Source: Rhodopseudomonas pentothenatexigens (GTDB taxonomy: Bacteria > Pseudomonadota > Alphaproteobacteria > Rhizobiales > Xanthobacteraceae). Taken from it: a stretch of DNA of 51,046 nt. The notes below the pieces were generated by a model. That model saw only the letters and a program-made list of their open reading frames with translations, did not search any database and had not been told where the DNA came from. The stretch covers positions 1-51,046 of the forward strand of contig NZ_UFQQ01000030.1 of assembly GCF_900218015.1 (NCBI RefSeq), read 5' to 3'. Shown piece after piece: positions 6,086 to 49,380 of the stretch (its first letter is position 1; each line of letters begins with the position of its first letter). Both the position numbers and the translations under genes were made by a program.

Positions 6086-6121
6086 CGCGCTCCTTCATCG
6101 GTACCCAGACCGTCCGAAAGG
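6086..6121. other. Boundary into an AT-richer accessory patch
   Basis: Between the HTH gene and about 6480 the base composition becomes clearly more AT-rich than the flanking mobility genes. I see no RNA gene. The only reading frame worth noting is the minus-strand one at 6122-6454. Confidence 0.3.
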
Positions 6122-6454: not shown

Positions 6455-6478
6455 AGCAACGTAGGATGGACGCTTCTT

Positions 6479-13415: not shown

Positions 13416-13559
13416 GACAACCTCCGCCGTTGGACGTTTTGTTGGACGAAATGTGAGACGCTTTCGAGGACAAAAGGCCACTCCAGTCCGGATCGTTCGG
13501 CTGAAGTCTAGCGTCCAGGCGCTGCTTAAGGTGCGGAATTCTTTGTAATTTCAACTTTT

Positions 13560-13606: not shown

Positions 13607-13624
13607 TGGCGGAAGGGGTGGGAT
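13607..13624. other. att core copy (element A / element B junction)
   Basis: The 18-mer TGGCGGAAGGGGTGGGAT is identical to 29789-29806, the 3' end of tRNA-Ser(UGA) including its CCA, acceptor strand and part of the T arm. Sequence on either side differs between the copies. It is the right end of element A and the left end of element B. Confidence 0.85.
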
Positions 13625-13972
13625 GCGCCGCCGCTTTCCGTATAACCGATTGATTTTTCAACGATGAAGCCAGAATTCCAAAGCCGATCTTGTTACAGGC
13701 GCATGTCCCATTTTCTGGCGGGCGATGTCAACAATTTAGGAGCGGAGATCGATGCTGTCCGGATGGCTGCTCAGGTGGCCATTCCCGTACTTCAGGCGAA
13801 CCAGTTGGGGACATCTCAACGTTAGTTTTGGCAAACCAACCGGGATGCTCGCCCCGCATTCAATGCCGTTTTAGAGGCTAGGCACATCATACGGGATGCA
13901 GACCGAAACAGACACAAGGACGGACTCACCGAATTGCCCACCATCGGCTCGCCCAGTTGAACTGTTTACTGG
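13625..13972. other. Left-end spacer of element B
   Basis: About 350 bp with one tiny frame (ATG 13703 to TAG 13825, 40 aa, containing GAEIDAVRMAAQVAIPVLQA) that looks helical but has no SD and no family. Nothing else is supported. It may hold integrase arm-binding sites. Confidence 0.3.
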
Positions 13973-14860
13973 CTAGGAAGCATTGTTGTAGGTCCAGACA
14001 GCATTCAGGAACGCCGTGCAGTTCGCTGTTGGCCACGTCACGTGTCCGTTTCCAAGTAGCTTGAACTGCTCGTTAGCGCTGGAAAAGTCTTCCCGTTTCG
14101 CGGCGAGAAGCCATTCCAGAACGTCTTTGAAATTGAGTTGCTCGCTTCCACCAAAGCGATCATTCGGGACGTTGTAGAGCATTCCTTCGATAAAGTACGA
14201 CGGCGCAAGCCCGTCTGCGATGATACGCTTCTCGATCATCGTATTTCGCAGGTTCTTGAATATGCGGACTGTGTGCTTGAACCACTGTTTCGTATCTTGA
14301 TGCTTGGTGGTGCAATTCTCGGCGTGGCGTTCAGGGAAGTTCTCAATCCTGATACCGTCCGGAAGAAAGAAGCAGATGCCGTCGACATAGACGGGTTCAC
14401 CGTACGCCGGAAAGGTGTAGTAGCGTCGCAGCTTCGCGCATACGAGAACGTCGGCGTCGCGGCGTCCTCCGTTTCCCTTAATGAAGATCGCCTTTTTTCC
14501 TGGCTTCACATCGTTCCCGTACTTCTTCACGAGCCAGGAGAGTACAGATGCTTTGAAGTCGTCGAGCGAGTAATTCCCTGGCGATCTCTGCGAGTTGTAG
14601 CGGGCCGTCTCCTCAGCATTCAGAAAATAGAGGTCAGTGTAGAAGACGGAGTCTAGCCGGATGACAACGTCAACATCGCTGTCGCCATAAACATTCGTCG
14701 TATTCTTGTAGGACCCTTGGAGAAAGATCTCAAAACTCTTGAGGAAATAGGGTGACTCGTGATGGTTCAATACTTCGCGAAGCGTCTCGTAGGTCGCGGT
14801 AAATTGTGAGGTGGGACCTTGCTTCGACCAAGTGTCAAGTTGTTGCTCAGAAATCGCCAT
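13973..14860 (-). CDS. CD-NTase-like nucleotidyltransferase (CBASS second-messenger synthase)
   Basis: A 295-aa protein with the CD-NTase/Pol-beta signature GS (49-50) followed by DSDVDVVI (catalytic acids D62 and D64) and a third acidic strand RRDADVLVC (D135/D137). Length and the C-terminal helical region fit cyclic oligonucleotide synthases, which make a cyclic di- or trinucleotide on phage infection. It lies 9 bp downstream of a patatin-like phospholipase gene, so the pair forms a minimal effector-plus-cyclase CBASS operon. No Cap2/Cap3 or HORMA/TRIP13 accessory gene is present. The CD-NTase clade and product cannot be stated from sequence reading alone. Confidence 0.8.
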   Translation of the reverse strand: MAISEQQLDTWSKQGPTSQFTATYETLREVLNHHESPYFLKSFEIFLQGSYKNTTNVYGDSDVDVVIRLDSVFYTDLYFLNAEETARYNSQRSPGNYSLDDFKASVLSWLVKKYGNDVKPGKKAIFIKGNGGRRDADVLVCAKLRRYYTFPAYGEPVYVDGICFFLPDGIRIENFPERHAENCTTKHQDTKQWFKHTVRIFKNLRNTMIEKRIIADGLAPSYFIEGMLYNVPNDRFGGSEQLNFKDVLEWLLAAKREDFSSANEQFKLLGNGHVTWPTANCTAFLNAVWTYNNAS

Positions 14861-14869
14861 GCATTACCC

Positions 14870-15817
14870 CTACAGCAAGTACTCTCTCAGGACATTTTCT
14901 CGTGATGCGAATGACTCGGCGCCGCGCTGGCGCAGAATGTTGAGCTTCGTAAGATTGTGTTCGAATAGGTCGGTCGCCATCTCTGGCTTCTCGAAGGTGT
15001 CGCTGATCCGCACGGTCTTGATGTCGTTGAACAAGATGTGGCGGAGCTGATCCATCGATTGTGTGTTTATCTCTAATGTCTTCTGAAGAAGTTGGACGCT
15101 CACAAGGTACTTTTGCGCAAACCACATCTTGAGCCCTGGCTTCGGTTCCGGATACACGCCGACACCGACGCTCACGACTCTGATATGCTCGCGCTCGACC
15201 TTCAGAGCCTTCAGTGCATCAGCTATGGCGTAGAGTGTTGGGTTGTTAGCGCAGTACCCGCCATCGATCAGCTCAACTTCATCTTCCATCGCGGTCTTGA
15301 TGGTCTTTCGCTCAAAGAATGGATAAGCAGAGCATGATGCTTGAACGGCTTCGCCGATCGTTACTCCGAAGCCTGGTACAAACGTTCCAACGCGCCCGTG
15401 CGCCTGTTCCACGCTTCCTTTGAAGATCATTGGTCGCTCGATTTCCCACTTAGTAGCGACCACGCCGACGCCGGTTTTCACCGAGTCGAACTTGTCCTCC
15501 TTGAATACTTTTTCCGATAGCTTGGCGAGGGCCGCCGATTTTTCACACGGGGTCTTCTTCTGCATTATCGTCGGGACGTACTCCCTGTAGAGCCCATGGA
15601 TCTCCTCGACGGAGTAGCCGAGCGCCAGTAGGGCAGCGATGATCGCGCCGGTGCTCGTCCCAAAGATCAGATCGAACTTCTCGTAAAGCCGACATCCGAT
15701 CAGGCCTTCGATTTCTCGGAGCACGCCGAGCGTATAGAAACCTTTCGCGCCGCCCCCATCGAGAGCCAGAATTCGGCAAGGTCGTTCTGCGGTAAAGTCT
15801 GGCATCTCCAACCTCAA
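14870..15817 (-). CDS. capV: Patatin-like phospholipase, CapV-type CBASS effector
   Basis: A 315-aa patatin domain: oxyanion hole DGGGAKG (20-26), nucleophile elbow GTSTG (S55) and the catalytic-dyad DGG (D185). As in CapV, ligand binding would activate degradation of inner-membrane phospholipids and kill the infected cell. It is first in a two-gene operon with the CD-NTase at 13973-14860. A second in-frame Met at 15805 is an alternative start. The promoter must lie in the gap to the right. Confidence 0.85.
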   Translation of the reverse strand: MRLEMPDFTAERPCRILALDGGGAKGFYTLGVLREIEGLIGCRLYEKFDLIFGTSTGAIIAALLALGYSVEEIHGLYREYVPTIMQKKTPCEKSAALAKLSEKVFKEDKFDSVKTGVGVVATKWEIERPMIFKGSVEQAHGRVGTFVPGFGVTIGEAVQASCSAYPFFERKTIKTAMEDEVELIDGGYCANNPTLYAIADALKALKVEREHIRVVSVGVGVYPEPKPGLKMWFAQKYLVSVQLLQKTLEINTQSMDQLRHILFNDIKTVRISDTFEKPEMATDLFEHNLTKLNILRQRGAESFASRENVLREYLL

Positions 15818-16379
15818 GTTGAATCAGCGCAACCTAGGACGCCGCCACTACGTGGAAAAGAGGCATCGACTTCCACCCCCAAGTTCGTCATTTGTTCTCG
15901 TGCGAAATGACATCGCTTCTGCATCGACGCGCCATAGGTGGATTGGCCCGGCGCAACACGGGATGGCAGGAGGGAGCGAACGCCTTTCCTTGAGCGGAGC
16001 GAGCCCCCTTCAAGCTGGGCATCCTGCCGCCGGCGCGGCAGATACCGCCCAGCCGGTGATGATCTTTCCCGTCGCGTCGCTCGCCCTGAAGGCCAATTCG
16101 GCGCGCCGGTACGTTGGCGCAAGGGGAGTGGTGCGGGCGCACGTAGGCCGAAGGCTGGAGGAGCCTCGGTCCCCTTGCGAGGCCCCGGAGGGGCCGCCCG
16201 GCGGGCCGGTGTGCCAGGTCGAGGAAGGGGCGAGTGATCCGACGGGGAAGCGGTACTAAAAGACCATTTCAGAAATTGTGGCGGAAGCCTGCCACAATTC
16301 GAAGCTTTTGCGCGGTGGTTTTATGGCCTCGGCGGGGGTCACATGGATGATTGCTCATCCGGAAAGAGACCCCCTTAGA
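15818..16379. other. Non-coding gap with GC-rich palindromes
   Basis: About 560 bp upstream of the CBASS operon and downstream of the relaxase operon. A clear hairpin, AATTGTGGC-N8-GCCACAATT (16274-16299), may end the leftward relaxase transcript, although no T-run is evident. Several GC-rich imperfect inverted repeats lie at about 16090-16220. The plus-strand frames here carry no recognisable protein. Confidence 0.35.
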
Positions 16380-16814
16380 TCAACGCGTCAGCAAGCTCCG
16401 CGGGCCTGTGCCGCGCGATGTCGGCCAGTCTGAGAGCGGTCCTCCGGAAGCCTCCGTTTCCGGATCGACGGTGGCGAGGATGAGCGCGCCGGCGGCGCGC
16501 CACTCCCGGAGGCAGCGGGTCGGATGCTCGGAGACATCGATCGCGAGACGCTGCCAATCGTCAGGCGTGATCGTCAGGAAATACGCCTGTAAGGCCGCGT
16601 CGTCGGCCACGACGGTGCGATGGCCGAGGACATCACACCAGGCCAGACCGTCGATCCGGACCCGCCGGTGATGCTCGTGACGCCGCGCGGTCCTCTCATC
16701 AGCGCGAATCCAAGCGGCGGCCTCGGGGGCGTAGTAGGTCCATTCCGACCGCGGCATGCGCCCGGACGCCCGGTCGACAATGTAGCGGCGCAGCATATGC
16801 GGAGCGACGGTCAT
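16380..16814 (-). CDS. Hypothetical protein co-transcribed with relaxase B
   Basis: A 144-aa frame whose ATG overlaps the relaxase stop by 4 bp (ATGA), so it is translationally coupled to it. The sequence has a charged N-terminus (HMLRRYIVDRASGRMPRSEW) and a DDWQRLAIDVSEHPTRCLREW segment. No family recognised. Placement as the last gene of the mobilisation operon suggests an accessory transfer role. Confidence 0.55.
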   Translation of the reverse strand: MTVAPHMLRRYIVDRASGRMPRSEWTYYAPEAAAWIRADERTARRHEHHRRVRIDGLAWCDVLGHRTVVADDAALQAYFLTITPDDWQRLAIDVSEHPTRCLREWRAAGALILATVDPETEASGGPLSDWPTSRGTGPRSLLTR

Positions 16815-18937
16815 CGTGAGTACGTGTACCCGGCCTCGCGGTCGTGATTATCGCGACGCGGGTTCGGCGGTGTGAACTCGCGGCCGGCGCGTTCGAACTC
16901 CTGAAGCTCGGTCTCCCCGAGATCACCGAACCTCTTCAGCGCGGCCGTGATATCGGCGATGGATTTCGCGGACAGCTGACTGCGCTGCTCGTCGTCGAGA
17001 TGCGCGACGACGAAAGCCTGCAAAGCTTTCGGGAGGCGGTTGAGGGCGGCGAGGTCGCCGGCGGCGGCGTTTCGGACATCGCCGGCGACGGCGATTGCAG
17101 ACTTGGCAGAAGAGAACGTTTTCGTCGTCTTCGCGGCGGTTTCGTGCTCGCGTTGCCACCTTGACCGGATCGCGTCGGACGGTTCGCAGTTCCGGACTTC
17201 GACGCCTGCACGCTGAGCAGCGATCCACAGCCGATCTTGCTCGGCCTGGGTCCAGTCGTCGCCGTCCAAGCACATGCCGCCGTCCCAAGAATCCCGAGCT
17301 TTGACGAGGACTGCGGCGATCGCTTCGTCCGTGAGCCCGCCATGGACGTCAAGGCGGTCGCCGGTGTCGCAGATCCGCGAGGTCCCGGCGTTAACCCAAC
17401 AGCCGTCCGGTCCGCCGGTCGCGTTGTAGCCGCGCATGGACCAGAAGATCACCAGCGATTTCACCGTGTCTTCAGCCGCTTTGGTGACCTTGAGCGCGTC
17501 AGCGTGAGCCGCGACAGAAGTCGATTTCGCAAGGTGCTGAACCTCGCAGCCGACCTTTGCGGCGAGTGCCCCGGCGAGGATTTGGGCGCGGCCGATGGGC
17601 CCCCAAGTCCGGACGGATCGGCGAACAGAATCGTACTCGATCCAGCCGCCATCCGTCGTCATGATCCGCGCCGCCTTGCCGGGCGCGGGCTTTTTGATCA
17701 TGCGCAGATCAAGTGTAAATGCATGCACATCGAAGCCCTCCGGAGCGATCTCCGACAAGAGTTTTGCTTTGAAATTCTGGGCTTTGATCTCCGCCATGAC
17801 TGCCCCCTTTGCTGCAATTATTGCTTGTAGATCGATGCTGCCTATGCGTTGCGCGGCGATCCGCTCGCGCAGGCGCTTTCGAGCCGCTGCAACGTCTCGG
17901 TGTGGTGTCCGAGAATCTGAACGATCGCTTGAAGTAGGCCCCTCAGTTCGTCCAACGGGCTCGTCTCGCCTTCCGGCTCGTCGAGAAGGCTCAGAAGCGG
18001 AAGCAGGCGCTCCGAGGTCTCCCGTGCTCTGGTCGCTTGAGTCAGGATTTCGTCGTTCTGATTGGGCATTTTTGACCTCATCAATGGTTGGAAAACGGAT
18101 TCCAGCGAGCCGTCTCCGGACGGCGGCCGCGGTGATTCTCTCGCCGCCGGTCTGCCGCGCGGCGGCAGCGAGGACGCGATTCAAAGAGTGGACGCTTCCG
18201 GAGCGGTCGATAAGGACGAATCCCTTCTCGCCGGTGGCGACGCTGAAGTCGAAGGCGTGGAGCGCGACGGCGAACGACTGCGCGTCAGATGACCCTCTCC
18301 ACGCCGCAAATGCCTGGGCTCGGATTTCCTCCAGCGGGACGGCGGTACGCTCGGCTTGAGAGCGCTGCCGAGGTGTTGAATGTGCGACCGGCCGGCGACC
18401 ATCGAGAAGACCGGCGGCCTCCATGGCGGTCGTGACGTCTTCACGGCCTTCCTTCCGGAGCGCGGCGGCAGCGGACCGATTGTGCTTGCCTTTGGTCATC
18501 GGCAAGCCGTGTTCAAACTCAACGACTCTCGATATTTTTTCGCGGCGCGCGTGATCGTGCGCGAGCGAGATCACGGAGCCGTCGTCGCGGACGAGAGACC
18601 AGACGACGTGAGCGTGTCGGCGGCCGGATTTGGTATGGAAGACACCCGCGCGTGGAGATTCCTCAAGTCCGAATTCGCGCTCGTAATGCTTGAGGAAAGA
18701 GGCGATCACGGCGTCCGGGTCGGCGCAGTCCGGGGGCGGATCAATGTGGACGTGATGAACGGGCCGGTCAGTGCGGCCATGAGCCGAGGATGCGACGAGC
18801 TCACGGATTTGATCGCGCAGATGCTCGGCAGCGAGGCCACGGGCGGGCATCACTTCGACTTTCTGGCCGTCCTTCTGTTTGAGCAGATGGCGGGCGAGGG
18901 CCGGTCCGCCTGATCCGCGAGTGGCGCCGGCGATCAC
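16811..18937 (-). CDS. Relaxase/mobilisation nuclease of element B
   Basis: A 708-aa relaxase. The N-terminal domain has HHVHIDPP (61-68) and the metal-binding His motif HTKSGRRHAHVVW (H101, H108, H110). A low-complexity linker (about 290-345, rich in Ser/Arg/Asp) leads to a region from about 350 and a C-terminal domain (IMTTDGGWIEYDSVRRSV onward) resembling domains appended to TraI-like relaxases. It overlaps mobC by 4 bp upstream and the 16380 gene by 4 bp downstream. A small gene is embedded in its linker in another frame (17842-18069). No coupling protein is encoded in element B. Confidence 0.8.
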   Translation of the reverse strand: MIAGATRGSGGPALARHLLKQKDGQKVEVMPARGLAAEHLRDQIRELVASSAHGRTDRPVHHVHIDPPPDCADPDAVIASFLKHYEREFGLEESPRAGVFHTKSGRRHAHVVWSLVRDDGSVISLAHDHARREKISRVVEFEHGLPMTKGKHNRSAAAALRKEGREDVTTAMEAAGLLDGRRPVAHSTPRQRSQAERTAVPLEEIRAQAFAAWRGSSDAQSFAVALHAFDFSVATGEKGFVLIDRSGSVHSLNRVLAAAARQTGGERITAAAVRRRLAGIRFPTIDEVKNAQSERRNPDSSDQSTGDLGAPASASEPSRRAGRRDEPVGRTEGPTSSDRSDSRTPHRDVAAARKRLRERIAAQRIGSIDLQAIIAAKGAVMAEIKAQNFKAKLLSEIAPEGFDVHAFTLDLRMIKKPAPGKAARIMTTDGGWIEYDSVRRSVRTWGPIGRAQILAGALAAKVGCEVQHLAKSTSVAAHADALKVTKAAEDTVKSLVIFWSMRGYNATGGPDGCWVNAGTSRICDTGDRLDVHGGLTDEAIAAVLVKARDSWDGGMCLDGDDWTQAEQDRLWIAAQRAGVEVRNCEPSDAIRSRWQREHETAAKTTKTFSSAKSAIAVAGDVRNAAAGDLAALNRLPKALQAFVVAHLDDEQRSQLSAKSIADITAALKRFGDLGETELQEFERAGREFTPPNPRRDNHDREAGYTYSR
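17842..18069 (-). CDS. Small helical protein nested in the relaxase gene in another frame
   Basis: Within the relaxase linker a second minus-strand frame encodes 75 aa beginning MPNQNDEILTQATRARETSE. It continues as an amphipathic helical protein (LDELRGLLQAIVQILGHHTE, then LQRLESAC). A consensus GAGGT SD sits five bases before the ATG. The host frame here is low-complexity Ser/Arg/Asp, as expected where a second frame constrains the sequence. Nested small mob genes are known inside some plasmid relaxase genes (e.g. mobB in mobA of RSF1010-like plasmids). No specific family is assigned. Confidence 0.6.
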   Translation of the reverse strand: MPNQNDEILTQATRARETSERLLPLLSLLDEPEGETSPLDELRGLLQAIVQILGHHTETLQRLESACASGSPRNA

Positions 18938-19332
18938 GGAGCGACATCCGCCGCTCGCAGGCGGTCGACGATTTTGACGAGCCCAGCTTGCGTTGCGCGC
19001 AGATCGTGCAGAATCGTTTCGACGACGTCGTGATCCGGAGCGTGACCGCCTTCACGCAGGGAGCGGGCGAGCTGAATCGTCGCGCCGGTGAGCTGGCCGA
19101 CGCTGCCGGTCAGCTTGGCGACGGCGGCGACGTCATCGTCCGGGGCGCGCGGTCGGCGGCGCGGCGGGCTCGGCGGCAAGGGCGGAAGGGTGGCACCGCC
19201 ATCCGGGAGCCGCATCCGGGCGGCTTCACGGAGCCAGCCGGATATCGTCGATCCGGCGTTCGCTGCGGCGGAAGCAACTGCGGCGCGGGTCGCGGGGTCG
19301 GCGCGGAAGAATAGAACGGGAGGGACGGACAT
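18934..19332 (-). CDS. mobC: MobC-like relaxosome accessory protein of element B
   Basis: A 132-aa protein with an N-terminal ribbon-helix-helix-like segment (PVLFFRADPATRAAVASAA, then STISGWLREAARMRL), a Pro/Arg-rich linker and a C-terminal helix pair (LTGSVGQLTGATIQLARSL). The architecture and its 4-bp overlap with the relaxase start support a MobC-type DNA-binding role at oriT. It is first in a leftward mobC-relaxase-16380 operon, so oriT is expected just to its right. Confidence 0.7.
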   Translation of the reverse strand: MSVPPVLFFRADPATRAAVASAAANAGSTISGWLREAARMRLPDGGATLPPLPPSPPRRRPRAPDDDVAAVAKLTGSVGQLTGATIQLARSLREGGHAPDHDVVETILHDLRATQAGLVKIVDRLRAADVAP

Positions 19333-20646: not shown

Positions 20647-22524
20647 TCAGCCGGTTCGACGTAAGAACCGTGGAGGCATCCATGTAGATTCAGTCGTAGA
20701 AGCGTCCAGAACACGCCTTCCGTCGCCTCGATCGGTTCTGGAGGAGGAGCAGCTCAGGTTCTGCTTCACATCCATCTGTTGTCCTGTCGGAGGCTGCTTC
20801 GCGGCTGTTGGCGGTCGCAGGTCCGTTTCGCTGCCGAGGGCAGCGAGAGTCTTCGGTTGCCGCAGGGCCGTGCCTCCATCCGAAGGATCGATATGTCTTT
20901 TCTGGTTCTGCCGGGCGGGGTGCGAGCACCCCGTACCCCCTGGTACGGGCATCCCCCCCTTCGGGGGGGAATATCCACCATATACATGTCGAATCGTGAT
21001 TGCCTCGGTATTCGAGGCGTTTTGGCTCGTCGACGTCATCGTACGACGCACCTCTTCGATGGCTTTGCCGATCAAGCCTTCCGAGACACCGATTTCGGTG
21101 GCGACCTGCTTCCGCGTCAGGCCGTCGCGAACCAGCCACAACGCGCGTTTTCCAAGTTTTATTCGCTCGGCTCGCTTCGTCTCATGCGAGGTCGCGCCGT
21201 TCTTAAGTCGACGCGCTCGGCAGGCTTCGACGTTCCGGATACGACGAGAGGATGCATCCAGCAGGACCCTTAAGCCGGCCGCCTGCATCTCTTCGTTGGA
21301 AATCGAGAGCCACCGTACGATTGTCTCGGCTTTCATCCGATAGCGGGGATCGAGTTCACGTCCTTCAAATTCGACGGATTTTCCGGCCGCTGCATCTTTG
21401 GCTCGTCGGATGATGGAACCCATGCGGGAGCGGGCTTCGCGTTCGCTCCAACCCGAGACTTCGCACGCGAGTGCCACAATCTGGCCTTCGAGCGCGGCGG
21501 CCGGCGTCACCCAGGACAACGCCATGGATGCCACGAACAGCCAAGTATCACGCTGACCGACGGGAAGCCGCCCAAAGGCAGAGCTGTATCGGTGCATCCG
21601 GAGGCGTTCGAGATCTTCGAGGATCGTCTCGGCGTAGCTCGCTGAATCTCGTCGCACGGCCGATTTCCGGCCCGTCTTCGATGTCGCTCGTCGCTTCGCA
21701 CGCTCCGCACGGAGGGACCTGATTTCGGCTCTTCTCATAGGCAGAATTTCATCAGCCATGGAGTCGAATTCATAACGATATGGCTTCGCCAGTTCGGCGC
21801 CTTGGATCCAAATCAGATGGACATGGCCGCGGCCGTTCTTCGCCTTCGGATTCCAGCTCCCTGCGAGGCGCAGCACCCGGGAGGCATCCTTTGCGGCAGG
21901 ATCGGCGCCGAATGACTGCAAAGCCTGCACAAGTCGCTCCTGAACCAGATTCCACCTTCTAATCGCCGTCGGAGGCAGGAGATCATGAAGCCAAACCGCA
22001 TGGATTCCGTTTCCAGAATCCATTGCAAAAGAAGGTGGCGGTATGCTCGCATCGTCGAGCGCGGCCAGCGCCGCTCGCAAGACCACGAGCGGATCTTTGC
22101 CGTTCCATCGCGACCTCGCCTTGTAGTCGAGGTCGACGAAGCAGCAGCCCAGGGCTGCAAGATTCCAAGTCTTCCGGGAATTCGGCTTCCGGAATGACTG
22201 CATCGAAAAGTACAGTTGGTTGACGGTGCCTTGGTGCCCTGATGCTATCAGGGATTCCGCTTCAACCTCGGCATTTACCAATCTCGACGACCATTGCTTC
22301 CAATTGTATTCGCGACCAGCGCCGTCGCGCCACCTGACGCCTTGCCCCCAGATCACGAAGCCCCTACGAAGCCGAGTACCTCGCTGGTTGGCGGGATGAA
22401 CCGCCCGAATATGCTGAGCGGGGCCGAAGGCCGTCCGTTCGTTCGCATCGGCGAAGCGGAATCGTGGAAGAGAGACTGATGTTTTGAGTGTGTCGTTGAC
22501 ACAAGACGAGGCCGAAGCCAGCAT
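20647..22524 (-). CDS. AEP-superfamily primase / replication protein of element B
   Basis: A 625-aa protein with the archaeo-eukaryotic primase signature seen in plasmid Rep proteins: metal site FVDLDY (D131, D133), SGNGIHAVW (170-178, motif II-like) and RVLRLAGSWNPKAKN (216-230, motif III-like). A second helical region follows at about 310-420. A HTH near residues 465-490 (GLTRKQVATEIGVSEGLIGK) and a disordered tail close it. Primases like this serve replication of an excised circle or lagging-strand priming during transfer. Two perfect hairpins (20930-20970) lie in the DNA for the tail. The first ~40 residues may not be translated. Confidence 0.7.
   Translation of the reverse strand: MLASASSCVNDTLKTSVSLPRFRFADANERTAFGPAQHIRAVHPANQRGTRLRRGFVIWGQGVRWRDGAGREYNWKQWSSRLVNAEVEAESLIASGHQGTVNQLYFSMQSFRKPNSRKTWNLAALGCCFVDLDYKARSRWNGKDPLVVLRAALAALDDASIPPPSFAMDSGNGIHAVWLHDLLPPTAIRRWNLVQERLVQALQSFGADPAAKDASRVLRLAGSWNPKAKNGRGHVHLIWIQGAELAKPYRYEFDSMADEILPMRRAEIRSLRAERAKRRATSKTGRKSAVRRDSASYAETILEDLERLRMHRYSSAFGRLPVGQRDTWLFVASMALSWVTPAAALEGQIVALACEVSGWSEREARSRMGSIIRRAKDAAAGKSVEFEGRELDPRYRMKAETIVRWLSISNEEMQAAGLRVLLDASSRRIRNVEACRARRLKNGATSHETKRAERIKLGKRALWLVRDGLTRKQVATEIGVSEGLIGKAIEEVRRTMTSTSQNASNTEAITIRHVYGGYSPPKGGMPVPGGTGCSHPARQNQKRHIDPSDGGTALRQPKTLAALGSETDLRPPTAAKQPPTGQQMDVKQNLSCSSSRTDRGDGRRVLDASTTESTWMPPRFLRRTG
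20930..20970. repeat. Pair of perfect hairpins within the primase 3' region
   Basis: CCCGTACC-CCCT-GGTACGGG (20930-20949) is followed two bases later by TCCCCCCC-TTC-GGGGGGGA (20952-20970). They encode the Gly/Pro-rich YGGYSPPKGGMPVPGG part of the protein tail. Back-to-back stable hairpins next to a primase gene recall single-strand initiation or origin structures, but they could be an inserted REP-like unit. Confidence 0.5.
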
Positions 22525-22795: not shown

Positions 22796-24094
22796 ATGCG
22801 GGCTGTTGAACTTTTCGCGGGCGCGGGCGGGATGAGCCTCGGCCTGATGCGTGCCGGTATCGACGTCATTCAAGCGTACGATTCTTGGAAGCCGGCAATC
22901 GATGTCTATCGAAGAAATGTCGGTCCGCACGTCTGGCAGATGGATCTCAAGGACATCTTCCACGTCGGGCCTATGATCGCTTCCCTCGCTCCGGACATGA
23001 TTGTCGGTGGCCCTCCCTGCCAGGACTTTTCGGCCGCCGGAGAGCGCGTCGAGGGTGAGCGAGCGGCGCTGACCAGGGCGTTCGCCATGCTCGTCGTGAT
23101 CGCGAGACCAGAATGGATTTTGATGGAAAACGTCCCTTTGGCCGCTCGGTCGCAGTCCTGGGTTGACTCTCGAGCGATCATCGTCAAAGCGGGATATGGC
23201 CTGACCGAAGCAAGACTGGATGCAAGCTTCTACGGTGTGCCGCAGCGACGACGAAGACTTTTTGTCGTGGGCAGGCTTGGTGAACAGCACGGCTTTCTGG
23301 ATTCTGCTATTGCTGCCGCTCGATCTGAACGAGCCATGACGATGCGAGAGATGTTGACGAATGACGTTGAGGATCTTCGATTGCTTCGCGCCGGCGCGTT
23401 CTTTACTCGACCATACTACGAAGGACGAGGTGTTCGGACGCTGGACGAACCAGCGCCGGCCGTGATCAGGACGTCGCGAGAACGACCCCGTCCGAAGTAT
23501 TTGAAGAATCCACACCCGGACGATCCGATTTCGGCGATCGATGCGGCCCTGCTGACCCAACAGCAGGTCTCTCGGATCCAAGGCTTTCCGTCGGATTGGG
23601 ACTGGTCTGCCGCGACATCAAGAGAGGTGGACCAAATGATCGCGAACGCGGTGCCGTCTCCGTTGGCCGAAGCTGTCGCTCGGGTGATCCTCGCAAGGGA
23701 ATCTGGCGAGACTATCCCTGCGCTTCTGGGTCGATTTGGCGTCTGGCTGGCCGATTCGCGTGGGTACACGAAGGCGGCAGTTCGCAATGCCAAAAGTCGG
23801 CTCAACCGTACACGTCGTCTGCTCGACGGACGGACCTTCAAAAACGGCGCTCTTGAACTTGCTGCGCTCGAAGAGGTTGAACAATTCAAGACCATGCCCA
23901 CGGGCACGCGATCCGATTTGAGGAAGTCGCTTGGATTGTACAGAGAGTGGCTATCCCAGCCACCGATCAAACGACGTGCCAACTCACGTTCGGTCGGGAT
24001 GACGGATCTCCGGCCCCCTTTGGATTGCGCGGCGAATCATCCAAAAAGTGAGCCGAACACTTGGTTTTCAACCGAGGGTAGGCTATCGGTTTGA
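22796..24094 (+). CDS. C5-cytosine DNA methyltransferase 1
   Basis: A 432-aa m5C methyltransferase. Motif I is ELFAGAGGMSLGL (5-17, SAM binding), motif IV GGPPCQDFS (catalytic C75), motif VI MENVP (110-114), motif VIII QRRRRLFVVG (150-159), then motif IX/X-like QGFPSDW and ANAVPSPLAEAV. About 120 extra residues follow (FGVWLADSRGYTKAAVRNA to LRKSLGLYREWLSQ), possibly a DNA-binding helical domain. First gene of a rightward operon with a GHKL ATPase, an unknown protein, a second m5C methyltransferase and Vsr. The short variable region before motif IX suggests a distinct target from methyltransferase 2. Confidence 0.9.
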   Translation: MRAVELFAGAGGMSLGLMRAGIDVIQAYDSWKPAIDVYRRNVGPHVWQMDLKDIFHVGPMIASLAPDMIVGGPPCQDFSAAGERVEGERAALTRAFAMLVVIARPEWILMENVPLAARSQSWVDSRAIIVKAGYGLTEARLDASFYGVPQRRRRLFVVGRLGEQHGFLDSAIAAARSERAMTMREMLTNDVEDLRLLRAGAFFTRPYYEGRGVRTLDEPAPAVIRTSRERPRPKYLKNPHPDDPISAIDAALLTQQQVSRIQGFPSDWDWSAATSREVDQMIANAVPSPLAEAVARVILARESGETIPALLGRFGVWLADSRGYTKAAVRNAKSRLNRTRRLLDGRTFKNGALELAALEEVEQFKTMPTGTRSDLRKSLGLYREWLSQPPIKRRANSRSVGMTDLRPPLDCAANHPKSEPNTWFSTEGRLSV

Positions 24095-24110
24095 TCTGGG
24101 GGGTAGGCGG

Positions 24111-25481
24111 ATGCCGATCAGCGGAAACGAGGATTTGCTCGCAAACGCGAATCCATCGAAGAGTTTCTTTATCGCGATGCTGACCAGGGATATCGACCTG
24201 GTCGATTGCATCCTTGATCTATTGGACAATTCCGTCGACGGGATCGGAGAGGCGGCGCGACGTCAGGGCGTCCAACTGGATCATGATCAACCATTTGTCG
24301 GCCACCTAGTCGAGATCTCCTTCGGTCGCGATAGCTTCCGGATTTCCGATGCCTCGGGTGGCATTCCGATCCAAGTCGCTGAGGACTATGCGTTCCGCTT
24401 CGGTCGTCCAGACGATGCGCCACTTCTTCAAGAAGGGACCATCGGTTTGTATGGTATCGGCATGAAGCGCGCCATGTTCAAGATGGGAAATTTGGTCGAA
24501 ATAAAGTCCAGTACAGGCTCGGAATCCTTCGAGCTGAATCTCAATGTCGATGAATGGCGTCGTGATCCTCAAATACGCTTGGAGCACGGTCGTCAGCTCG
24601 TCGAGTGGTCGTTTCCTCTCACGCGTGTGGTCAGGAATGGCAGTACGGTGCCGGCGGGTACCGTGATCGAAGTCAAAGAGCTCTACCCGGGAATCGGCAG
24701 ACAGTTTGACAGCCCAGCCTTTATTGAGCGTTTGCGCCGAATGATTGCCCGCGACTACGCCTTCATTCTTAGTCGCGGATTGAAGGTGAGGGTAAACACC
24801 GCAGATATCGTCCCCGTGATGCCTCGAATGCGAGTAAGTGACGAGTTTGCCCCATTCAAGCACGTTGAAATTCATGAGGGCGTAAAGATAGAGATAACCG
24901 CGGGTTTGGCGGATCCGCCTCCTGATGACACTTCCGCGACTGCACGAAATCCAGATAGTGGCGTGTACGGCTGGTATGTAGTCTGTAACGATCGCGTCGT
25001 GGTGAGCGCCGACAAGTCGTCGGATACTGGGTGGGGCATGAGACCGGTGCCAGCTTGGCACCCGCAGTTCATCGGCTTTATGGGCGTTGTTCGCTTTGAT
25101 AGTGCCGAGCCTAGCAAGTTGCCATGGAAGACGACGAAGCGAGATGTTGAGGCGAGCAATACCTTCTATCAACTAGCTCTTCCCACAATGATCAAAGCGA
25201 CCAAACGGTGGGTTGACTACACAAACAAAAGGCGCGCCGACGCCAAGCGTTTGAAGAAGATGGAGAGGGCTGCGAAACAGGTTCCTGTTTCCAGGATTAC
25301 GGTGAGCGAGCAAATGCGTCTGCCTATGACGACCAAGAATGACGTCGTCGTCATTGAGTATGTGCGGGAAGCGGCAGATGTCGAGGCAGCTGCGGAAGCA
25401 TTGGGAATCGTAGGTTCTTCCCCGACCGAAGTTGGCATTCAGACGTTTGAATATTTCTTCAAGCGAGAAGTCGTGCGATGA
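24111..25481 (+). CDS. GHKL ATPase, MORC/MutL-like, in an R-M context
   Basis: A 456-aa ATPase. The Bergerat-fold motifs are LVDCILDLLDNSVDGI (DNS at 39-41; the usual Glu of motif N is Asp), FRISDASGGI (78-85, Mg/ATP lid) and GLYGIGMKRAMFK (112-124). A transducer-like region follows, with LPWKTTKRDVE (337-347) containing the Lys that would contact the gamma phosphate. Start 24111 is preferred: a Gly-rich SD precedes it and it lies 16 bp after the methyltransferase stop, whereas the longer frame from 24048 overlaps that gene. Prokaryotic MORC-type ATPases are known from comparative work to associate with DNA methylases and nucleases. It probably acts as an ATP-driven clamp or communication module. 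Confidence 0.8.
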   Translation: MPISGNEDLLANANPSKSFFIAMLTRDIDLVDCILDLLDNSVDGIGEAARRQGVQLDHDQPFVGHLVEISFGRDSFRISDASGGIPIQVAEDYAFRFGRPDDAPLLQEGTIGLYGIGMKRAMFKMGNLVEIKSSTGSESFELNLNVDEWRRDPQIRLEHGRQLVEWSFPLTRVVRNGSTVPAGTVIEVKELYPGIGRQFDSPAFIERLRRMIARDYAFILSRGLKVRVNTADIVPVMPRMRVSDEFAPFKHVEIHEGVKIEITAGLADPPPDDTSATARNPDSGVYGWYVVCNDRVVVSADKSSDTGWGMRPVPAWHPQFIGFMGVVRFDSAEPSKLPWKTTKRDVEASNTFYQLALPTMIKATKRWVDYTNKRRADAKRLKKMERAAKQVPVSRITVSEQMRLPMTTKNDVVVIEYVREAADVEAAAEALGIVGSSPTEVGIQTFEYFFKREVVR

Positions 25482-26425
25482 GCAAACGTTCATTTGAAGC
25501 GATCAATTATATGCTCCGTCCCAACAAAAACGTCGAGCGCAAGCTAATTGTAGCTACGCTAAAGAAATTGCAGCCTCAGTTCGACATTCCGAAGTTCAGA
25601 TACGTGGGCTTCGGCTCAATGTGGTTTTCCGATTTCGTCCTGGTCCATCGCTACCTGAATATTTGCGATCTGATCACAATTGAGAATCAGAAGAGCAGAA
25701 AAAAGCGAGTGGAATTCAACAAGCCGTTCGCCTGTATCGAGGTGCGGATGGATGAAGCGGCAATTGCCCTGGGCGATGTTCTTGACGGTAAGCAGAGCAT
25801 AGTCTGGCTAGACTACGACGGTCCGCTCAAGAGTGCAATGACTGGAGACCTCGAAACGGCGGTGGGCGAAATGGTTTCTGGAAGTATGCTTCTGGTCAGT
25901 GTCAATGCTTCGGTCGATCAATTGCGAAACCAGAAGCTTCAGGGTGAGGAGGTGGAAGCCAATGTATATCTGGCGGACATTTGCGAGAATGAGGAGCTTC
26001 TCAATAGTGAGCTCCGACTGACAGCTAATGAGTTTCCCGCTCTAGCTGCGCAGATACTGCACGATCGGATTAAGTCTGCGGTTCTGGAGAAGAAGCCGGG
26101 TTGTGAGTACGTGCCGATCTGGTCCTATCGGTACGCCGATGGCGTGACCATGGTGACTGTCGGTGGGATGATTGCCGATCATATGGATCGAGACAAATTG
26201 CGGGCCTCAGACGCTTCCACCTTTGCCGCTGCCACTGGACGTGAGTTGTTTGATATCGATTTGCCAGTTCTCACTGAAAAGGAGAAGCGCGCTTTGGATA
26301 AGCTTCTCCCTTCGGAGGAGGGACTCGATCCAAGGAGATTGGAGTTTGAACTGCGACCAAGCGAGGTTGCGGCTTATCAGCGTTTCTACTTGGAGTATCC
26401 CATTTTCGGCGAGCTTGTTGGGTGA
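25478..26425 (+). CDS. Uncharacterised operon protein with a Rossmann-like core
   Basis: A 315-aa protein overlapping the GHKL gene by 4 bp (ATGA). I do not recognise it confidently. Residues 40-120 look like a methyltransferase-type Rossmann fold: FRYVGFGSMWFSDF (glycine loop, 44-47), LITIEN with an acidic residue at the strand end (69) and SIVWLDYDGPL (107-117). There is no cytosine-methylase PC motif. A KSRKKRVEFNKPF basic patch could contact nucleic acid. It may be a degenerate or small-molecule/base-modifying methyltransferase, or a cryptic effector. Its strict placement inside the operon suggests an essential role. Confidence 0.6.
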   Translation: MSKRSFEAINYMLRPNKNVERKLIVATLKKLQPQFDIPKFRYVGFGSMWFSDFVLVHRYLNICDLITIENQKSRKKRVEFNKPFACIEVRMDEAAIALGDVLDGKQSIVWLDYDGPLKSAMTGDLETAVGEMVSGSMLLVSVNASVDQLRNQKLQGEEVEANVYLADICENEELLNSELRLTANEFPALAAQILHDRIKSAVLEKKPGCEYVPIWSYRYADGVTMVTVGGMIADHMDRDKLRASDASTFAAATGRELFDIDLPVLTEKEKRALDKLLPSEEGLDPRRLEFELRPSEVAAYQRFYLEYPIFGELVG

Positions 26426-26464
26426 GGACAAACCTTCGGTCTTCGAAGGCAGGGACGAGCCGAA

Positions 26465-27547
26465 ATGACCCTTGTTGATCTCTTTTGCGGTTGTGGCGGC
26501 TTCTCGTTAGGAGCGCACAAGGCTGGCTTCGATGTTGCAGCCGCATTTGATGTCGATGCCACACTGACCTCGTCGTTTCATGCGAATTTTCCAAAGACGC
26601 GTTTGTATCTACGCGACGTGGGAAAGCTCACGGGTGTTGAGATCACAAAGTTGCTCGGGCGGTCAGTAACCGGCATATTCGGAGGACCGCCATGTCAGGG
26701 TTTCAGTGATATCGGCCGACGAGATGCGAGTGATCCACGTCGAAAGCTATTGTCGCACTTCTTTCGGATCGTATCCGAGTTGAAGCCATTGTTCTTCGTC
26801 ATGGAAAACGTGAGGGGGTTGGTTTACGAGGATTCCCGAGGGGTTCTTGGAAGCGCCATCGAGCAGGTTGCCGGTCAATATGATATCTTGGGTCCCCTGA
26901 TATTGGACGCGGCGGACTTCGGTGCCGCTACTCGTCGACGCCGAGTATTTGTGGTTGGCATACACAAAAAGGCTAAGTCTCCTCTGTTGTTGTCGGATAT
27001 TCGTGCCTTCGAGCGGCCGGCTGCGACGGTGAGGTCGGCGATCGCGGATCTTGTTGATGCAGAACCTCTCGGGGTCCGAGAAGACAATTTCGATTACTGG
27101 CGTATCACGAGGCGTGGTCGTCCTTCCGAGTATGCGCGTTCGCTTCGTAGCCACGACGGGCTTTTTGCGAGCCATCGAATGGTGGAACATAAGGCAGACG
27201 TTGCCCGACGGTTTGCTTCGGTTGCACCAGGTGATACCGATCCTGTAGGTCGTCATCCGCGATTGGCTTGGGATGGGCAATGCCCGACGCTTCGAGCCGG
27301 TACAGGCGCTGATAAGGGGTCGCGGCAGGCGGTCCGTCCACTTCACCCAGAAGAGCCGCGGGTCATAACTGTTCGCGAGGCGGCTCGATTGCAGGGCTTC
27401 CCGGATCGACATATTTTTCATCCGACGATCTGGCATAGCTTTCGGATGATTGGTAACAGCGTGTCGCCAATTGTTTCCCAGGCCGTCTTTCTGTCGATCC
27501 GAAAGAAGCTCGGTCTTGCCTCCATTGCGGGTCTCGTCGGTGAATGA
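26465..27547 (+). CDS. C5-cytosine DNA methyltransferase 2
   Basis: A 360-aa m5C methyltransferase with motif I DLFCGCGGFSLG (5-16), motif IV GGPPCQGFS (C77), motif VI VMENVRG, motif VIII TRRRRVFVVG, a target-recognition region (about 200-290) and motif IX/X (REAARLQGFPDRHIF, IGNSVSPIVSQAV). It is complete and of usual length. It lies 39 bp after the unknown gene and 3 bp before vsr. With methyltransferase 1 this gives two m5C enzymes in one operon, suggesting an asymmetric site methylated strand by strand, or two sites. Confidence 0.9.
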   Translation: MTLVDLFCGCGGFSLGAHKAGFDVAAAFDVDATLTSSFHANFPKTRLYLRDVGKLTGVEITKLLGRSVTGIFGGPPCQGFSDIGRRDASDPRRKLLSHFFRIVSELKPLFFVMENVRGLVYEDSRGVLGSAIEQVAGQYDILGPLILDAADFGAATRRRRVFVVGIHKKAKSPLLLSDIRAFERPAATVRSAIADLVDAEPLGVREDNFDYWRITRRGRPSEYARSLRSHDGLFASHRMVEHKADVARRFASVAPGDTDPVGRHPRLAWDGQCPTLRAGTGADKGSRQAVRPLHPEEPRVITVREAARLQGFPDRHIFHPTIWHSFRMIGNSVSPIVSQAVFLSIRKKLGLASIAGLVGE

Positions 27548-27550
27548 GGA

Positions 27551-28000
27551 ATGGTTGATCGCCTGAGCGTTCAGAGAAGGTCCTGGCTGATGTCCCGGGT
27601 AAAGGGACGTGATACACTTCCTGAATTGGTGGTGAGGCGCGCAGCTCATTCTCTGGGGTTGCGGTTTAGAATCCAACAGAAGGATCTTCCCGGCAAGCCG
27701 GATCTGATTTTTCCTCGTTGGCGTATTGCGATCTTCGTTCATGGCTGCTTCTGGCATCGGCACCGCGGCTGCAAGAAGGCAACGATGCCGAAATCCCGCA
27801 GGCAATTCTGGCGGACCAAGTTTGAGCGCAACGTAGCGCGAGATGAACGAGTGATCCAAGAACTCGAGGGTTGCGGTTGGCGGACACTTGTAGTCTGGCA
27901 GTGTCAGACAACTAACTTGGCTGCTCTGAAAACAATTCTATCTGAGTTCTTTGGATTGAAGCAGAAGATCGATGAAGTGCAGCCCGATGGTTTGAAATGA
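27551..28000 (+). CDS. vsr: Vsr-type very-short-patch / DNA nicking endonuclease
   Basis: A 149-aa Vsr. It matches the E. coli enzyme position for position at catalytic and base-intercalating residues: E25, D51 (in LPGKPDLIFP), H64, F67, W68 and H69 (FVHGCFWHRH). A zinc-ligand set (C66, C74, H71 region) is present. Classical Vsr nicks 5' of the T in T:G mismatches arising from deaminated m5C, protecting cells that methylate. In operons that lack any other nuclease, a Vsr-fold protein may itself be the restriction nuclease. It ends the operon. Confidence 0.9.
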   Translation: MVDRLSVQRRSWLMSRVKGRDTLPELVVRRAAHSLGLRFRIQQKDLPGKPDLIFPRWRIAIFVHGCFWHRHRGCKKATMPKSRRQFWRTKFERNVARDERVIQELEGCGWRTLVVWQCQTTNLAALKTILSEFFGLKQKIDEVQPDGLK

Positions 28001-28056: not shown

Positions 28057-29703
28057 TTATCGTTTTTTTCGCGAAAGGTAGGGTGAGATATCGACTCCCG
28101 GAAAGTCGACTCGCTCGATGACGGCGGTTTCGAAATCTTCAAGTTTGGGGTTGTTGTAGTGACCTTGGGCGCCGTCGATCAGGTGGCCCATGATCCTATC
28201 CTTCGTTCGGTCGGGAGTAAGGGCTCTCGATAGGGCAGCCGAAAAATTGTGTCGAAGACTGTAGAAGGAGGTGGCGGCAGTCTTCGCGCCGGCGCGCTGG
28301 AGGTCGCGATTCAGGCGCTTTCCGACCGCAGAAGAATAGTATCCGTACCGATCTGTCCGAAGGCGTGGGAAGAGGCGAACGAATTTGGGGTGTTCACGGC
28401 GTTCTTCGACCAAATCGATGAAGCCGGCTGAAATGAGATCATCGTGAATCGGAATCTGCCGACGTGCGGATGCCGTCTTGAGCTTCAGTCTTGCGACGGC
28501 CTTGTCCTTCGGCTTGAGTCCTTTCACGGCTCGCTCGATCTCGTCGCGGTCATAGACCGTCAGCAGATCGATGTGCCAACGTCGATTGTGCATGACGATC
28601 CGGCGGGGTTCGATTTGGCAGAGTTCATTGAGCCGGGCGCCGGTGTACAGGGCCAAGATGGGCAACCAATAGTCTTCGGTGGCGCGGGAACGCGTCCGGA
28701 CGATGTAGCGGAAGTAGGCGCTAATCTGATCAGACGTGAAGGCAAGACGACCTTCATCCGGCCGCTCGGTGCGGCGGCTTTCGCGCGTTCGCGTCGAAAC
28801 GATTCCGACCGCAGGGTTCGCCGGAATCAATGAATGGCGGACAAGGTGTGTGAAGAAGGTCTTCACAGGTGTCAGATAGTCGTCGTCCACCGTCTTGTCG
28901 TCGATAACATCGAAAGGCCGCAGGCGCTTCTCGTTCTGTTCGGTAGCGACAGCAAGGTCATATGTCTTAAACCGGTCGTAGGCGCGCTTCGGCGTTCGAT
29001 CCAAGATGTCGCGATACCGCTCGAAGTCCTGTCGCGTGTACTCCCGGAGAGGTTTATCACCGATCGTTTGAATGAAGTTCTGGATCCTTGGCCCGATCGT
29101 CGAAACATGCTTCGTGCCGCCAAGATCCTTAGCCTTCGCCGCGACGTACGCTTCGACTTTTGTAGACAGCAGATCAGACGACCATTGATTTTTATGCACG
29201 TTCTGAACGTCGTCGCGAAGTTTCCCGAACTCGTTCATAAACACCGCCCGCAAGTCGGCGAACTCGTTTGAGCGCGCCTTAGCCGGCGCCGCCCGCAAGG
29301 CCGCTACTCGGTCGCTGATTGCAGAGATGCGATCAGCAATCCCGGAGAGTTGCCCCAGTGTTTCGACCTTCGACTTGTAATCGGTCACTGCGGCCTGAAT
29401 GGCGTCTGCCTGCCGCCTGGCCTTCATGATGGCCTGCTGGCCTTCCGCGAGACCCATAGCGTCGTCGAGCATCCGCAGCAGGAGAGCGCGGTCGGGCTGA
29501 TCCGGATCATCTGCATGAGCTTGTCGAACTGCGTCCGACCACTGGTCCATTGCCACTGCCAACCTCATTGCCCGCTTCCGGGCCTTTCTGCGGTCGCCGG
29601 TCCGGAGGCTCACCGCGGCGTCGGACGAGCCGACATGAGCCTTCAATTCGGTCGGGATCGATCGGCGGAACCAGTAAACGTCGCCTCGTTTCCATAGGTA
29701 CAT
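28057..29703 (-). CDS. int: Tyrosine recombinase/integrase of element B
   Basis: A 548-aa integrase. The N-terminus (MYLWKRGDVYWFRRSIP) is the DUF6538-like start common in alphaproteobacterial integrases, followed by a long helical insert (about 80-150) and a core-binding domain. The catalytic domain has LALYTGARLNELCQI (Arg I), SFYSLRHNFSAAL (His/Arg II), and IMGHLIDGAQGHYNNP with His and the nucleophilic Tyr. It starts 85 bp from the tRNA-Ser 3' end, its attachment site. It shares little visible similarity with integrase A beyond catalytic motifs, yet both use the same att core. Confidence 0.9.
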   Translation of the reverse strand: MYLWKRGDVYWFRRSIPTELKAHVGSSDAAVSLRTGDRRKARKRAMRLAVAMDQWSDAVRQAHADDPDQPDRALLLRMLDDAMGLAEGQQAIMKARRQADAIQAAVTDYKSKVETLGQLSGIADRISAISDRVAALRAAPAKARSNEFADLRAVFMNEFGKLRDDVQNVHKNQWSSDLLSTKVEAYVAAKAKDLGGTKHVSTIGPRIQNFIQTIGDKPLREYTRQDFERYRDILDRTPKRAYDRFKTYDLAVATEQNEKRLRPFDVIDDKTVDDDYLTPVKTFFTHLVRHSLIPANPAVGIVSTRTRESRRTERPDEGRLAFTSDQISAYFRYIVRTRSRATEDYWLPILALYTGARLNELCQIEPRRIVMHNRRWHIDLLTVYDRDEIERAVKGLKPKDKAVARLKLKTASARRQIPIHDDLISAGFIDLVEERREHPKFVRLFPRLRTDRYGYYSSAVGKRLNRDLQRAGAKTAATSFYSLRHNFSAALSRALTPDRTKDRIMGHLIDGAQGHYNNPKLEDFETAVIERVDFPGVDISPYLSRKKR

Positions 29704-29788: not shown

Positions 29789-29806
29789 TGGCGGAAGGGG
29801 TGGGAT
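29789..29806. other. att core copy at the 3' end of tRNA-Ser(UGA)
   Basis: TGGCGGAAGGGGTGGGAT, identical to 13607-13624. It spans the encoded CCA, discriminator, acceptor 3' strand and part of the T stem, so integration keeps the tRNA functional. Confidence 0.85.
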
Positions 29807-29878
29807 TCGAACCCACGGTACCCTTGCGGGCACGCCGGTTTTCAAGACCGGTGCCTTAAACCGCTCGGCCACCCTTCC
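29789..29878 (-). tRNA. tRNA-Ser (anticodon UGA)
   Basis: The minus strand folds as a class II tRNA. The acceptor is GGAAGGG paired with CCCTTCC, followed by G and an encoded CCA. A GCCGAGCGGTTTAAGGC D region, an anticodon arm with loop CTTGAAA (UGA), a long variable arm and a GTGGGTTCGAATCCCAC T arm complete it. It is the integration target of elements A and B. Confidence 0.97.
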
Positions 29879-49362: not shown

Positions 49363-49380
49363 GCGCGGACCGCCCGAGTC

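Follow-up and report, generated by a model that had tools for sequence, protein, structure and literature searches.

A conserved MORC ATPase-Methyltransf_35 gene pair beside diverse DNA-modification genes: the probable core of a restriction-modification-like defence operon on a mobile element

A contig of Rhodopseudomonas pentothenatexigens (NZ_UFQQ01000030.1), analysed over its positions 1 to 51,046 and called the window below, carries an operon of five genes that encode, in this order, a C5-cytosine DNA methyltransferase (MT1), a GHKL ATPase, a Methyltransf_35 protein, a second C5-cytosine DNA methyltransferase (MT2) and a Vsr-type endonuclease. The operon is carried by an integrative mobilisable element at a tRNA-Ser(TGA) gene. 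We regard it as probably a modification-licensed defence system resembling restriction-modification (R-M) systems, the core of which would be a unit composed of the MORC-type ATPase and Methyltransf_35 and active on DNA that lacks the self mark. This reading is built on the constancy of the ATPase/Methyltransf_35 gene pair and on the variety of DNA-modification genes that accompany it.

Conservation of the GHKL/Methyltransf_35 pair

Relatives of the operon came from 16 loci of a contig scan with the Methyltransf_35 protein as query, eight genome-search loci with usable flanks and four loci from plasmid, phage and viral collections. At all 28 assessable loci the Methyltransf_35 gene is preceded, upstream and on the same strand, by a gene of this GHKL family. 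The two genes overlap or are at most 8 bp apart in 26 of the 28, insertions being found in L021, where the inserted gene is a transposase, and in L029. The pair is conserved across phyla, and the gene-neighbourhood search that the initial annotation had proposed as a check was passed strongly. Distances between GHKL proteins and between Methyltransf_35 proteins are correlated in a mirror-tree comparison of 27 loci (r 0.828), a value reached in none of 5000 permutations (maximum 0.35).

The association was also found in the reverse direction. In a search that scored at most five candidates per genome, four of 299 genomes had a GHKL match with E ≤1e-20, and the three strong matches (E ≤1e-142) all have an adjoining Methyltransf_35 gene. 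The exception is a weak match in genome G548 (1e-35). This relative (L058; 124 or 186 bits) was assigned to a different subfamily, with no Methyltransf_35 in the 19.5 kb covered and no MORC motif. The Methyltransf_35 family itself (PF20553) is rare, occurring in 4/296 genomes of the same family, 5/398 of the phylum, and 3/296 and 3/251 in two other phyla, where each count includes the centre genome and the same-family and phylum samples may overlap.

Several stretches are outside these counts: L045 and L046, where the contig ends at Methyltransf_35; L047 and L048, the same loci as L020 and L022; L059, which is kin of L027 and has its gene at the end of the stretch; and L003-L006, brief stretches that are truncated or are pieces of loci entering the count under another handle. 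L008 belongs to the pair count, its 4.3-kb contig being too short for its modification partner to be assessed, and L049 belongs to the pair count and, as kin of L021, is outside the Vsr count given below. The alignments of the two families (A1 and A2) are without the L021 GHKL open reading frame (ORF) and without both L029 ORFs. A Rhizobium locus (L030) was rejected and is uncounted, its GHKL being split and distant and Methyltransf_35 being absent. Viral scans with L012, L013 and L039 as queries gave no matches, and plasmid searches with L013 and L028 gave no plasmids beyond those already found.

Exchange of DNA-modification partners

DNA-modification genes are present near 28 of the 29 loci, the window included: genes for 5-methylcytosine (m5C) methyltransferases at 18, Dnd phosphorothioation at six, DISARM (defence island system associated with restriction-modification) at two and N6/N4 methyltransferases at two, L008 being the remaining locus. 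The m5C methyltransferase lies within 3.2 kb in these 18 loci. When genome loci alone are counted, this is true for 14 of 24, and a fifteenth, of DISARM type, has its m5C gene at 8.9 kb; with 50 pieces of PF00145 matches in ~101 Mb, chance would put one inside as much as 8 kb at about 0.8% of loci.

Linkage to Dnd was established by PADLOC for L010, L011 and L015 and by a DndC match inside the locus for L014. For L020 and L022 the DndC match is located ~9.5 kb off on the same contig, and the intervening genes are on the same strand except for one 80-aa ORF in L047. Both DISARM loci, one on a Microvirga plasmid and one in a genome of another phylum, are of class 1 by PADLOC models and PLSDB annotation, and hold the pair between DrmMI and DrmA, together with Dcm and Vsr. 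In the latter genome DrmD is found in two ORFs. A second GHKL-like protein of 653 aa (L041, 401-2362, - strand; PADLOC REase_II, 4e-109) is encoded in a DISARM locus with the pair in which DrmD is likewise split between two ORFs. The N6/N4 methyltransferase gene is directly adjacent to the pair in L042 and ~5.7 kb away in L040.

A phylogenetic tree was constructed from the concatenated pair, and a single clade of m5C-linked pairs was rejected by the approximately unbiased (AU) test (p 2.6e-46; 16 vs 11 rows, L008 being treated as not m5C). Since m5C-linked pairs do not form one clade, the modification partners of the pair have been exchanged. Its presence near four kinds of DNA-modification system suggests that one self/non-self module is shared across systems that are filed separately, and the pair may be a transferable module by which self and foreign DNA are distinguished.

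The five genes of the operon

The five ORFs (22796-28000) are co-directional on the + strand, and the spacings between them are, in order, 16 bp, a 4-bp overlap, 39 bp and 3 bp; the packing with overlaps or gaps under 40 bp described in the initial annotation is thus correct, the largest gap being 39 bp. MT1 (22796-24094, +, 432 aa; PF00145, 3.3e-45) displays the motifs FxGxGG, GGPPCQ, MENV and ANAVP and has a C-terminal extension past about residue 300, with PADLOC MTase_II spanning residues 1-300. MT2 (26465-27547, +, 360 aa; PF00145, 4.5e-57) contains GGPPCQ, MENV and GNSV. Both are therefore predicted PF00145 methyltransferases with catalytic PCQ and ENV motifs. Elsewhere in the genome there is one further PF00145 gene, beside a Vsr gene of its own; this second m5C methyltransferase-Vsr pair is on contig C50 at ~49226-50622.

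The ATPase gene (24111-25481, +, 456 aa) matches PF13589 (HATPase_c_3) at 1e-05 and 26 bits, only just above the cut-off of 25 bits. Its longest ORF opens at 24048; the ATG chosen here, at 24111, lies behind a GGGGGGTAGG stretch, 16 bp past the MT1 stop. All GHKL motifs are recognisable: the N-box with D37 and N41, D81xxxG85 (DxxGG), G113xxGxG118 (GxxGxGMK) and K120, each kept in 26-27 of 27 members per alignment column, and D37, N41, D81, G118 and K120 in all 27. GHKL ATPases usually have a catalytic glutamate at the general-base position. In this family the position is occupied by aspartate (D37) in 27/27 members, and the outgroup L058 has, by eye, glutamate there; the aspartate might be a hallmark of slow or switched ATP hydrolysis. 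The MORC-specific S5 motif GhXhhpXXRhl is found in 26 of the 27 members including that of the window, L042 being off by one position, and it occurs in 24 of 5400 shuffles and in none of 28 Methyltransf_35 sequences. This motif places the ATPase with MORC proper, rather than with paraMORC, as a probable assignment. When the family profile was compared with the PDB, the best relatives were TopoVI-B (E 4e-4), HtpG and MORC4/MORC2 (E 0.01-0.02). The description of the gene as a MORC/MutL-like GHKL ATPase is supported.

The third protein (25478-26425, +, 315 aa) had been described as an unrecognised Rossmann-like protein. It is not unrecognised, as it matches a named Pfam family, Methyltransf_35 (PF20553, "putative O-methyltransferase"), at 8.6e-90 and 301.6 bits against a gathering cut-off of 27, and the same family is matched by 28/28 members of our set. 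A glycine-rich loop, an acidic residue after strand 2 and a hydrophobic-Asp signature at strand 4 follow in the order that would fit a class-I S-adenosylmethionine methyltransferase fold. Thirteen residues are invariant in the 28 members (Y11, R14, K17, R21, Y42, G46, D52, W110, D112, M225, T227, E269 and P308), and position 69 is E in 27 of 28, E or D overall; G46, D52, W110, D112 and E69 are those that would suit such a fold. No nuclease family is matched by the protein, and no sequence relative was found in the PDB by phmmer, the best profile-search match (E 0.63) being unrelated.

The last gene (27551-28000, +, 149 aa) encodes a Vsr-type very-short-patch-repair endonuclease (PF03852, 3e-27; TIGR00632 vsr, 5.5e-41), covered by TIGR00632 over the full length of the model (1-119/119). 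Its E25, D51, H64 and H69 are at positions of active-site residues of Escherichia coli Vsr (PMC12907096, in part; sources available in part are so marked throughout), and the fifth residue, D97 of E. coli, is by eye probably D98 of the window protein.

No classical restriction endonuclease family was matched by the five proteins in Pfam, NCBIfam or PADLOC (for the methyltransferases, among the best 25 of 60 and the best 25 of 62 PADLOC families), which agrees with the initial annotation. With regard to type II R-M systems, the operon thus has the DNA methyltransferases and, in place of a cognate restriction endonuclease, Vsr only. Neither the GHKL ATPase nor the Methyltransf_35 protein encoded here is matched by a model of PADLOC-DB 2.0.0. 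The GC content of the five genes is 0.51-0.58, compared with 0.62 for the window.

In Tardiphaga robiniae (L007) all five genes are found in the same order, 68-86% identical to those of the window (MT1 68%). The exact five-gene set, which the initial annotation did not recognise as characterised, is therefore not unique. Since the same five genes occur in Tardiphaga and the GHKL/Methyltransf_35 pair is conserved across phyla, the organization of the operon is beyond chance. The earlier proposal of a candidate defence operon of R-M-like kind, with an ATPase of MORC/MutL type and no classical restriction enzyme, is supported.

Filamentous phages with three of the five genes

At the inovirus-type loci L027, L049 and L021, only the m5C methyltransferase, GHKL and Methyltransf_35 genes of the operon are present. 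The genome of Pseudomonas phage PfAC20 (L027; 13.6 kb, inovirus) starts with GHKL, Methyltransf_35 and the m5C methyltransferase, and Vsr is absent. In four scanned of its seven other coding sequences annotated as hypothetical, no Pfam match was found. A cytosine methyltransferase of PfAC20, which gene being unstated, has been counted as an incomplete R-M system (PMC11878078, in part). ORF1 and ORF2 of this phage are the pair and adjoin the methyltransferase ORF3, so they are likely to be the missing partners of that "incomplete" system. More generally, dcm genes or pseudogenes have been reported in 21 of 182 Pf prophages (PMC7549136, in part).

A viral contig (L059) is 93-94% identical to L027 in Methyltransf_35 and the methyltransferase, the two genes for which the cassette is visible there, and 40-68% identical in four other matched ORFs. 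This contrast would be expected if the cassette moves between phages. In L021 (Stutzerimonas, with a Zot-like gene recognised by eye) and its close kin L049, a viral contig, GHKL and Methyltransf_35 are accompanied by the methyltransferase on the opposite strand. No nuclease was found in two scanned of the nine other ORFs of L049.

Proposed function

The following scheme would account for the gene content. MT1 and MT2 would put a self mark on cytosines. The GHKL and Methyltransf_35 proteins would work as a single unit in which a DNA clamp gated by ATP is joined by a partner of methyltransferase fold; the MORC dimer would close on DNA with ATP, and the pair would survey DNA and act where the cognate mark is absent. 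The blocking step might be performed by the pair directly, or the pair might license a nuclease encoded by a neighbouring gene or elsewhere. Vsr would be an accessory, repairing T:G mismatches that arise by deamination of the operon's own 5-methylcytosines. The parts that we infer are self/non-self sensing, the action as a clamp and the way in which the invader is blocked. As to minimal loci, we lean slightly towards the view that the pair itself carries interference. There is a precedent for ATPase-gated sparing of self: the ATPase of DndI is stimulated by the self mark and then leaves self DNA (PMC11662687, in part).

Several observations weigh against this reading. Direct reading of m5C, N6/N4 and phosphorothioate marks by a single pair is difficult to envisage; possibly the pair reads a partner protein or a DNA state and not the mark itself. 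Dnd-linked pairs have three independent origins on the best tree, yet a single clade of them is not rejected (AU p 0.186), and several independent origins were therefore not accepted for them. The core of phage PfAC20 carries a second annotated cytosine methyltransferase (ORF9). Nuclease candidates are found at many loci, namely Vsr, HNH (L016, L038, L039), PIN_8 (L011), a PLD-SF2 helicase (L020), DndG/DndH (L015) and a type II enzyme recognised by PADLOC at L018, with homologues in L019 and L029. Finally, that L009, L013, L017 and the phage loci have no recognised nuclease holds only provisionally, as ORFs were scanned there in part.

The L018 enzyme (5789-6577) matches PADLOC PDLC03404 at 1e-132 and has no Pfam match; its homologues at 2736-3593 in L019 and 15395-16189 in L029 are 82% and 71% identical to it. 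Of six Dnd genomes, one has full-length DndH and another a C-terminal piece of it, DndH being the only one of DndFGH searched there.

Because many loci carry a nuclease candidate, the pair may only assist a nuclease. It is thus possible, though clearly less probable than a self-mark-dependent unit, that the pair merely helps R-M systems, as a looping or licensing factor in the manner of MutL, and that cutting is left to a conventional nuclease, which would be Vsr in the window and HNH, PD-(D/E)xK, PIN, PLD or DndFGH elsewhere. Such candidates do adjoin many loci; MORC and paraMORC proteins of R-M operons have been proposed to connect sites of recognition and cleavage by looping of the DNA (PMC2292703), and in VcSduA neither the GHKL ATPase nor the nuclease is dispensable (PMC12137116, in part). 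On the other hand, the type of nuclease varies from locus to locus while GHKL and Methyltransf_35 are together in 28/28, and the ORFs scanned in L027 and L049/L021, which were a part of the total, include no recognised nuclease.

A bolder idea, to which we give rather little credence, is that the pair is a modification-agnostic interference module: irrespective of the self mark that accompanies it (m5C, N6/N4, phosphorothioate, DISARM), it would clamp DNA devoid of this mark and inactivate that DNA by means of an effector of methyltransferase fold instead of a nuclease, which would amount to R-M without a cutting "R".

It was suggested in the initial annotation that the Vsr-fold nuclease, licensed by the ATPase, may do the cutting. 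Vsr is indeed the sole nuclease family match among the five proteins of the window, and in ARMADA systems the YprA-like helicase is fused to a nuclease domain of Vsr type that is predicted to be active (PMC12458937, in part). The distribution of Vsr speaks against this role. Vsr was detected by profile at 9 of 17 independent m5C loci and at both DISARM loci (11/19 of m5C type), compared with 0/8 of Dnd or N6/N4 type (Fisher p 0.008, flank lengths differing among the loci). The pair is thus kept without Vsr at 8/17 m5C loci and at 8/8 others, and Vsr as an obligatory cutter was rejected. Owing to this patchy, m5C-only distribution, Vsr is better seen as a repair enzyme that tracks m5C, as such an enzyme should, than as an effector; with its repair active-site residues retained, it looks like repair cargo and not like the cutter, and conversion into a restriction nuclease is very unlikely.

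Also very unlikely is a cassette for epigenetic functions or element maintenance, in which orphan methyltransferases and a DNA-organising ATPase would aid persistence of the element: several loci are on mobile elements (the integrase/relaxase element, filamentous phages, plasmids) and a solitary m5C methyltransferase with a Vsr-like protein can persist for fitness reasons (PMC12907096, in part), but the pair is inserted inside DISARM and beside Dnd genes, and a further defence system (CBASS, below) is encoded on the same element.

MORC ATPases function in epigenetic silencing in animals and plants. No test of a bacterial MORC of the present type was found in the literature examined. The operon, reduced to three genes in filamentous phages, offers a compact set for asking what MORC does with a DNA mark.

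Relation to known systems

A study of 2008 proposed an origin of MORC ATPases in bacterial R-M systems, and it was already known then that ATPases of the MORC and paraMORC kinds occur in R-M operons together with Dcm and Vsr (PMC2292703). The statement of the initial annotation that MORC-type ATPases in R-M-like loci are known from comparative genomics is thereby confirmed. The operons of that study resemble ours in that m5C methyltransferases and Vsr accompany an ATPase with GHKL and S5 domains and the MORC motif, and a minority of them lack a helicase. They differ in that the main text describes neither a Methyltransf_35 partner nor sharing with Dnd, DISARM or N6/N4 systems, although the uncharacterised domains of a figure legend might include the former.

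The HEF_HK/Response_reg_2 pair, called "TCS-like" (two-component-system-like; PMC8011034, in part), is similar in having a HATPase_c_3 gene with a conserved partner, an m5C methyltransferase upstream and often Vsr downstream. The pair does not belong there, as PF19191 is among the matches listed for 0/27 GHKL proteins and PF19192 among those for 0/28 Methyltransf_35 proteins, matches being considered at E up to 1.

VcSduA, a paraMORC3 Shedu protein (PMC12137116, in part), is likewise a GHKL ATPase in anti-phage defence. Changes of its ATPase or nuclease residues abolish protection, among them E27A, which was designed to disrupt ATP hydrolysis. In contrast to the window genes, it is one protein with its own PD-(D/E)xK domain; the window GHKL has HATPase_c_3 as its only Pfam match, no PADLOC family and a separate methyltransferase-like partner. 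Lacking a C-terminal PD-(D/E)xK (DUF4263) domain, it was not assigned to Shedu/paraMORC3.

IscS-DndBCDE-DndI (PMC11662687, in part) is comparable in that an ATPase responds to the self mark, self being spared and unmodified phage DNA attacked. Unlike our pair, DndI combines DUF262 with HNH, is a nickase and is confined to phosphorothioate. No DndBCDE proteins were found by PADLOC among the five genes, which excludes the operon from Dnd. It is not DISARM either, no DrmA, DrmB, DrmC or DrmD being found among the five (for the methyltransferases among the best 25 matches, other window genes being scanned in part); DrmMII matches of MT1 and MT2 score below the MTase_II models.

Literature searches yielded no study naming PF20553 or Methyltransf_35, no description of the MORC/Methyltransf_35 pair or of its sharing with Dnd or DISARM, and no paper combining phosphorothioation, Dnd and GHKL, within a coverage that excludes most subscription journals, supplements and figures. 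The available main text of a 2024 reappraisal of Dnd (PMC10853773, in part) mentions no MORC, GHKL, HATPase, gyrase or MutL, and the available part of PMC7824862 contains nothing relevant to the pair. On this weak evidence, what seems to be new is the MORC/Methyltransf_35 pair and its sharing among modification systems; for MORC alone, an association with Dcm and Vsr within R-M operons is known.

The mobile element

The initial annotation placed the operon within a mobile element, and this is borne out by an integrase gene beside tRNA-Ser, a relaxase gene and a repeat of the tRNA 3' end. The integrase is a tyrosine integrase (28057-29703, - strand) with DUF6538 (PF20172, 6.7e-17) and Phage_integrase (PF00589, 6.3e-10) domains. 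The integration site is tRNA-Ser(TGA) at 29789-29878 (-), detected by ARAGORN, and a distal att-like copy of its 3' end is found at 13607-13627, identical to 29789-29809 in 20 of 21 positions. A weaker copy of this repeat (81%) is at 16115-16135. A second integrase-like gene (12105-13481, -), recognised by eye, is located just past the distal repeat and suggests that elements are arranged in tandem at tRNA-Ser.

Within the element, the operon is accompanied by a pair of genes of CBASS (cyclic oligonucleotide-based anti-phage signalling system) at 13973-15817, an oligonucleotide cyclase (13973-14860, -; PADLOC Cyclase, 1.4e-118) and a patatin-like phospholipase effector (14870-15817, -; PADLOC Effector/Phospholipase, 5.9e-166). 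The relaxase is MobA/VirD2-like (16811-18937, -; PF03432, 2.8e-11), and next to it lies a weakly NikA-like gene (18934-19332; PF21983, E 0.013, below its cut-off). A replication/primase-like protein of 625 aa is encoded at 20647-22524 (-; PF16793, 0.004, below its cut-off), and by blastp it is 56% identical to the product of the gene upstream of the Tardiphaga operon.

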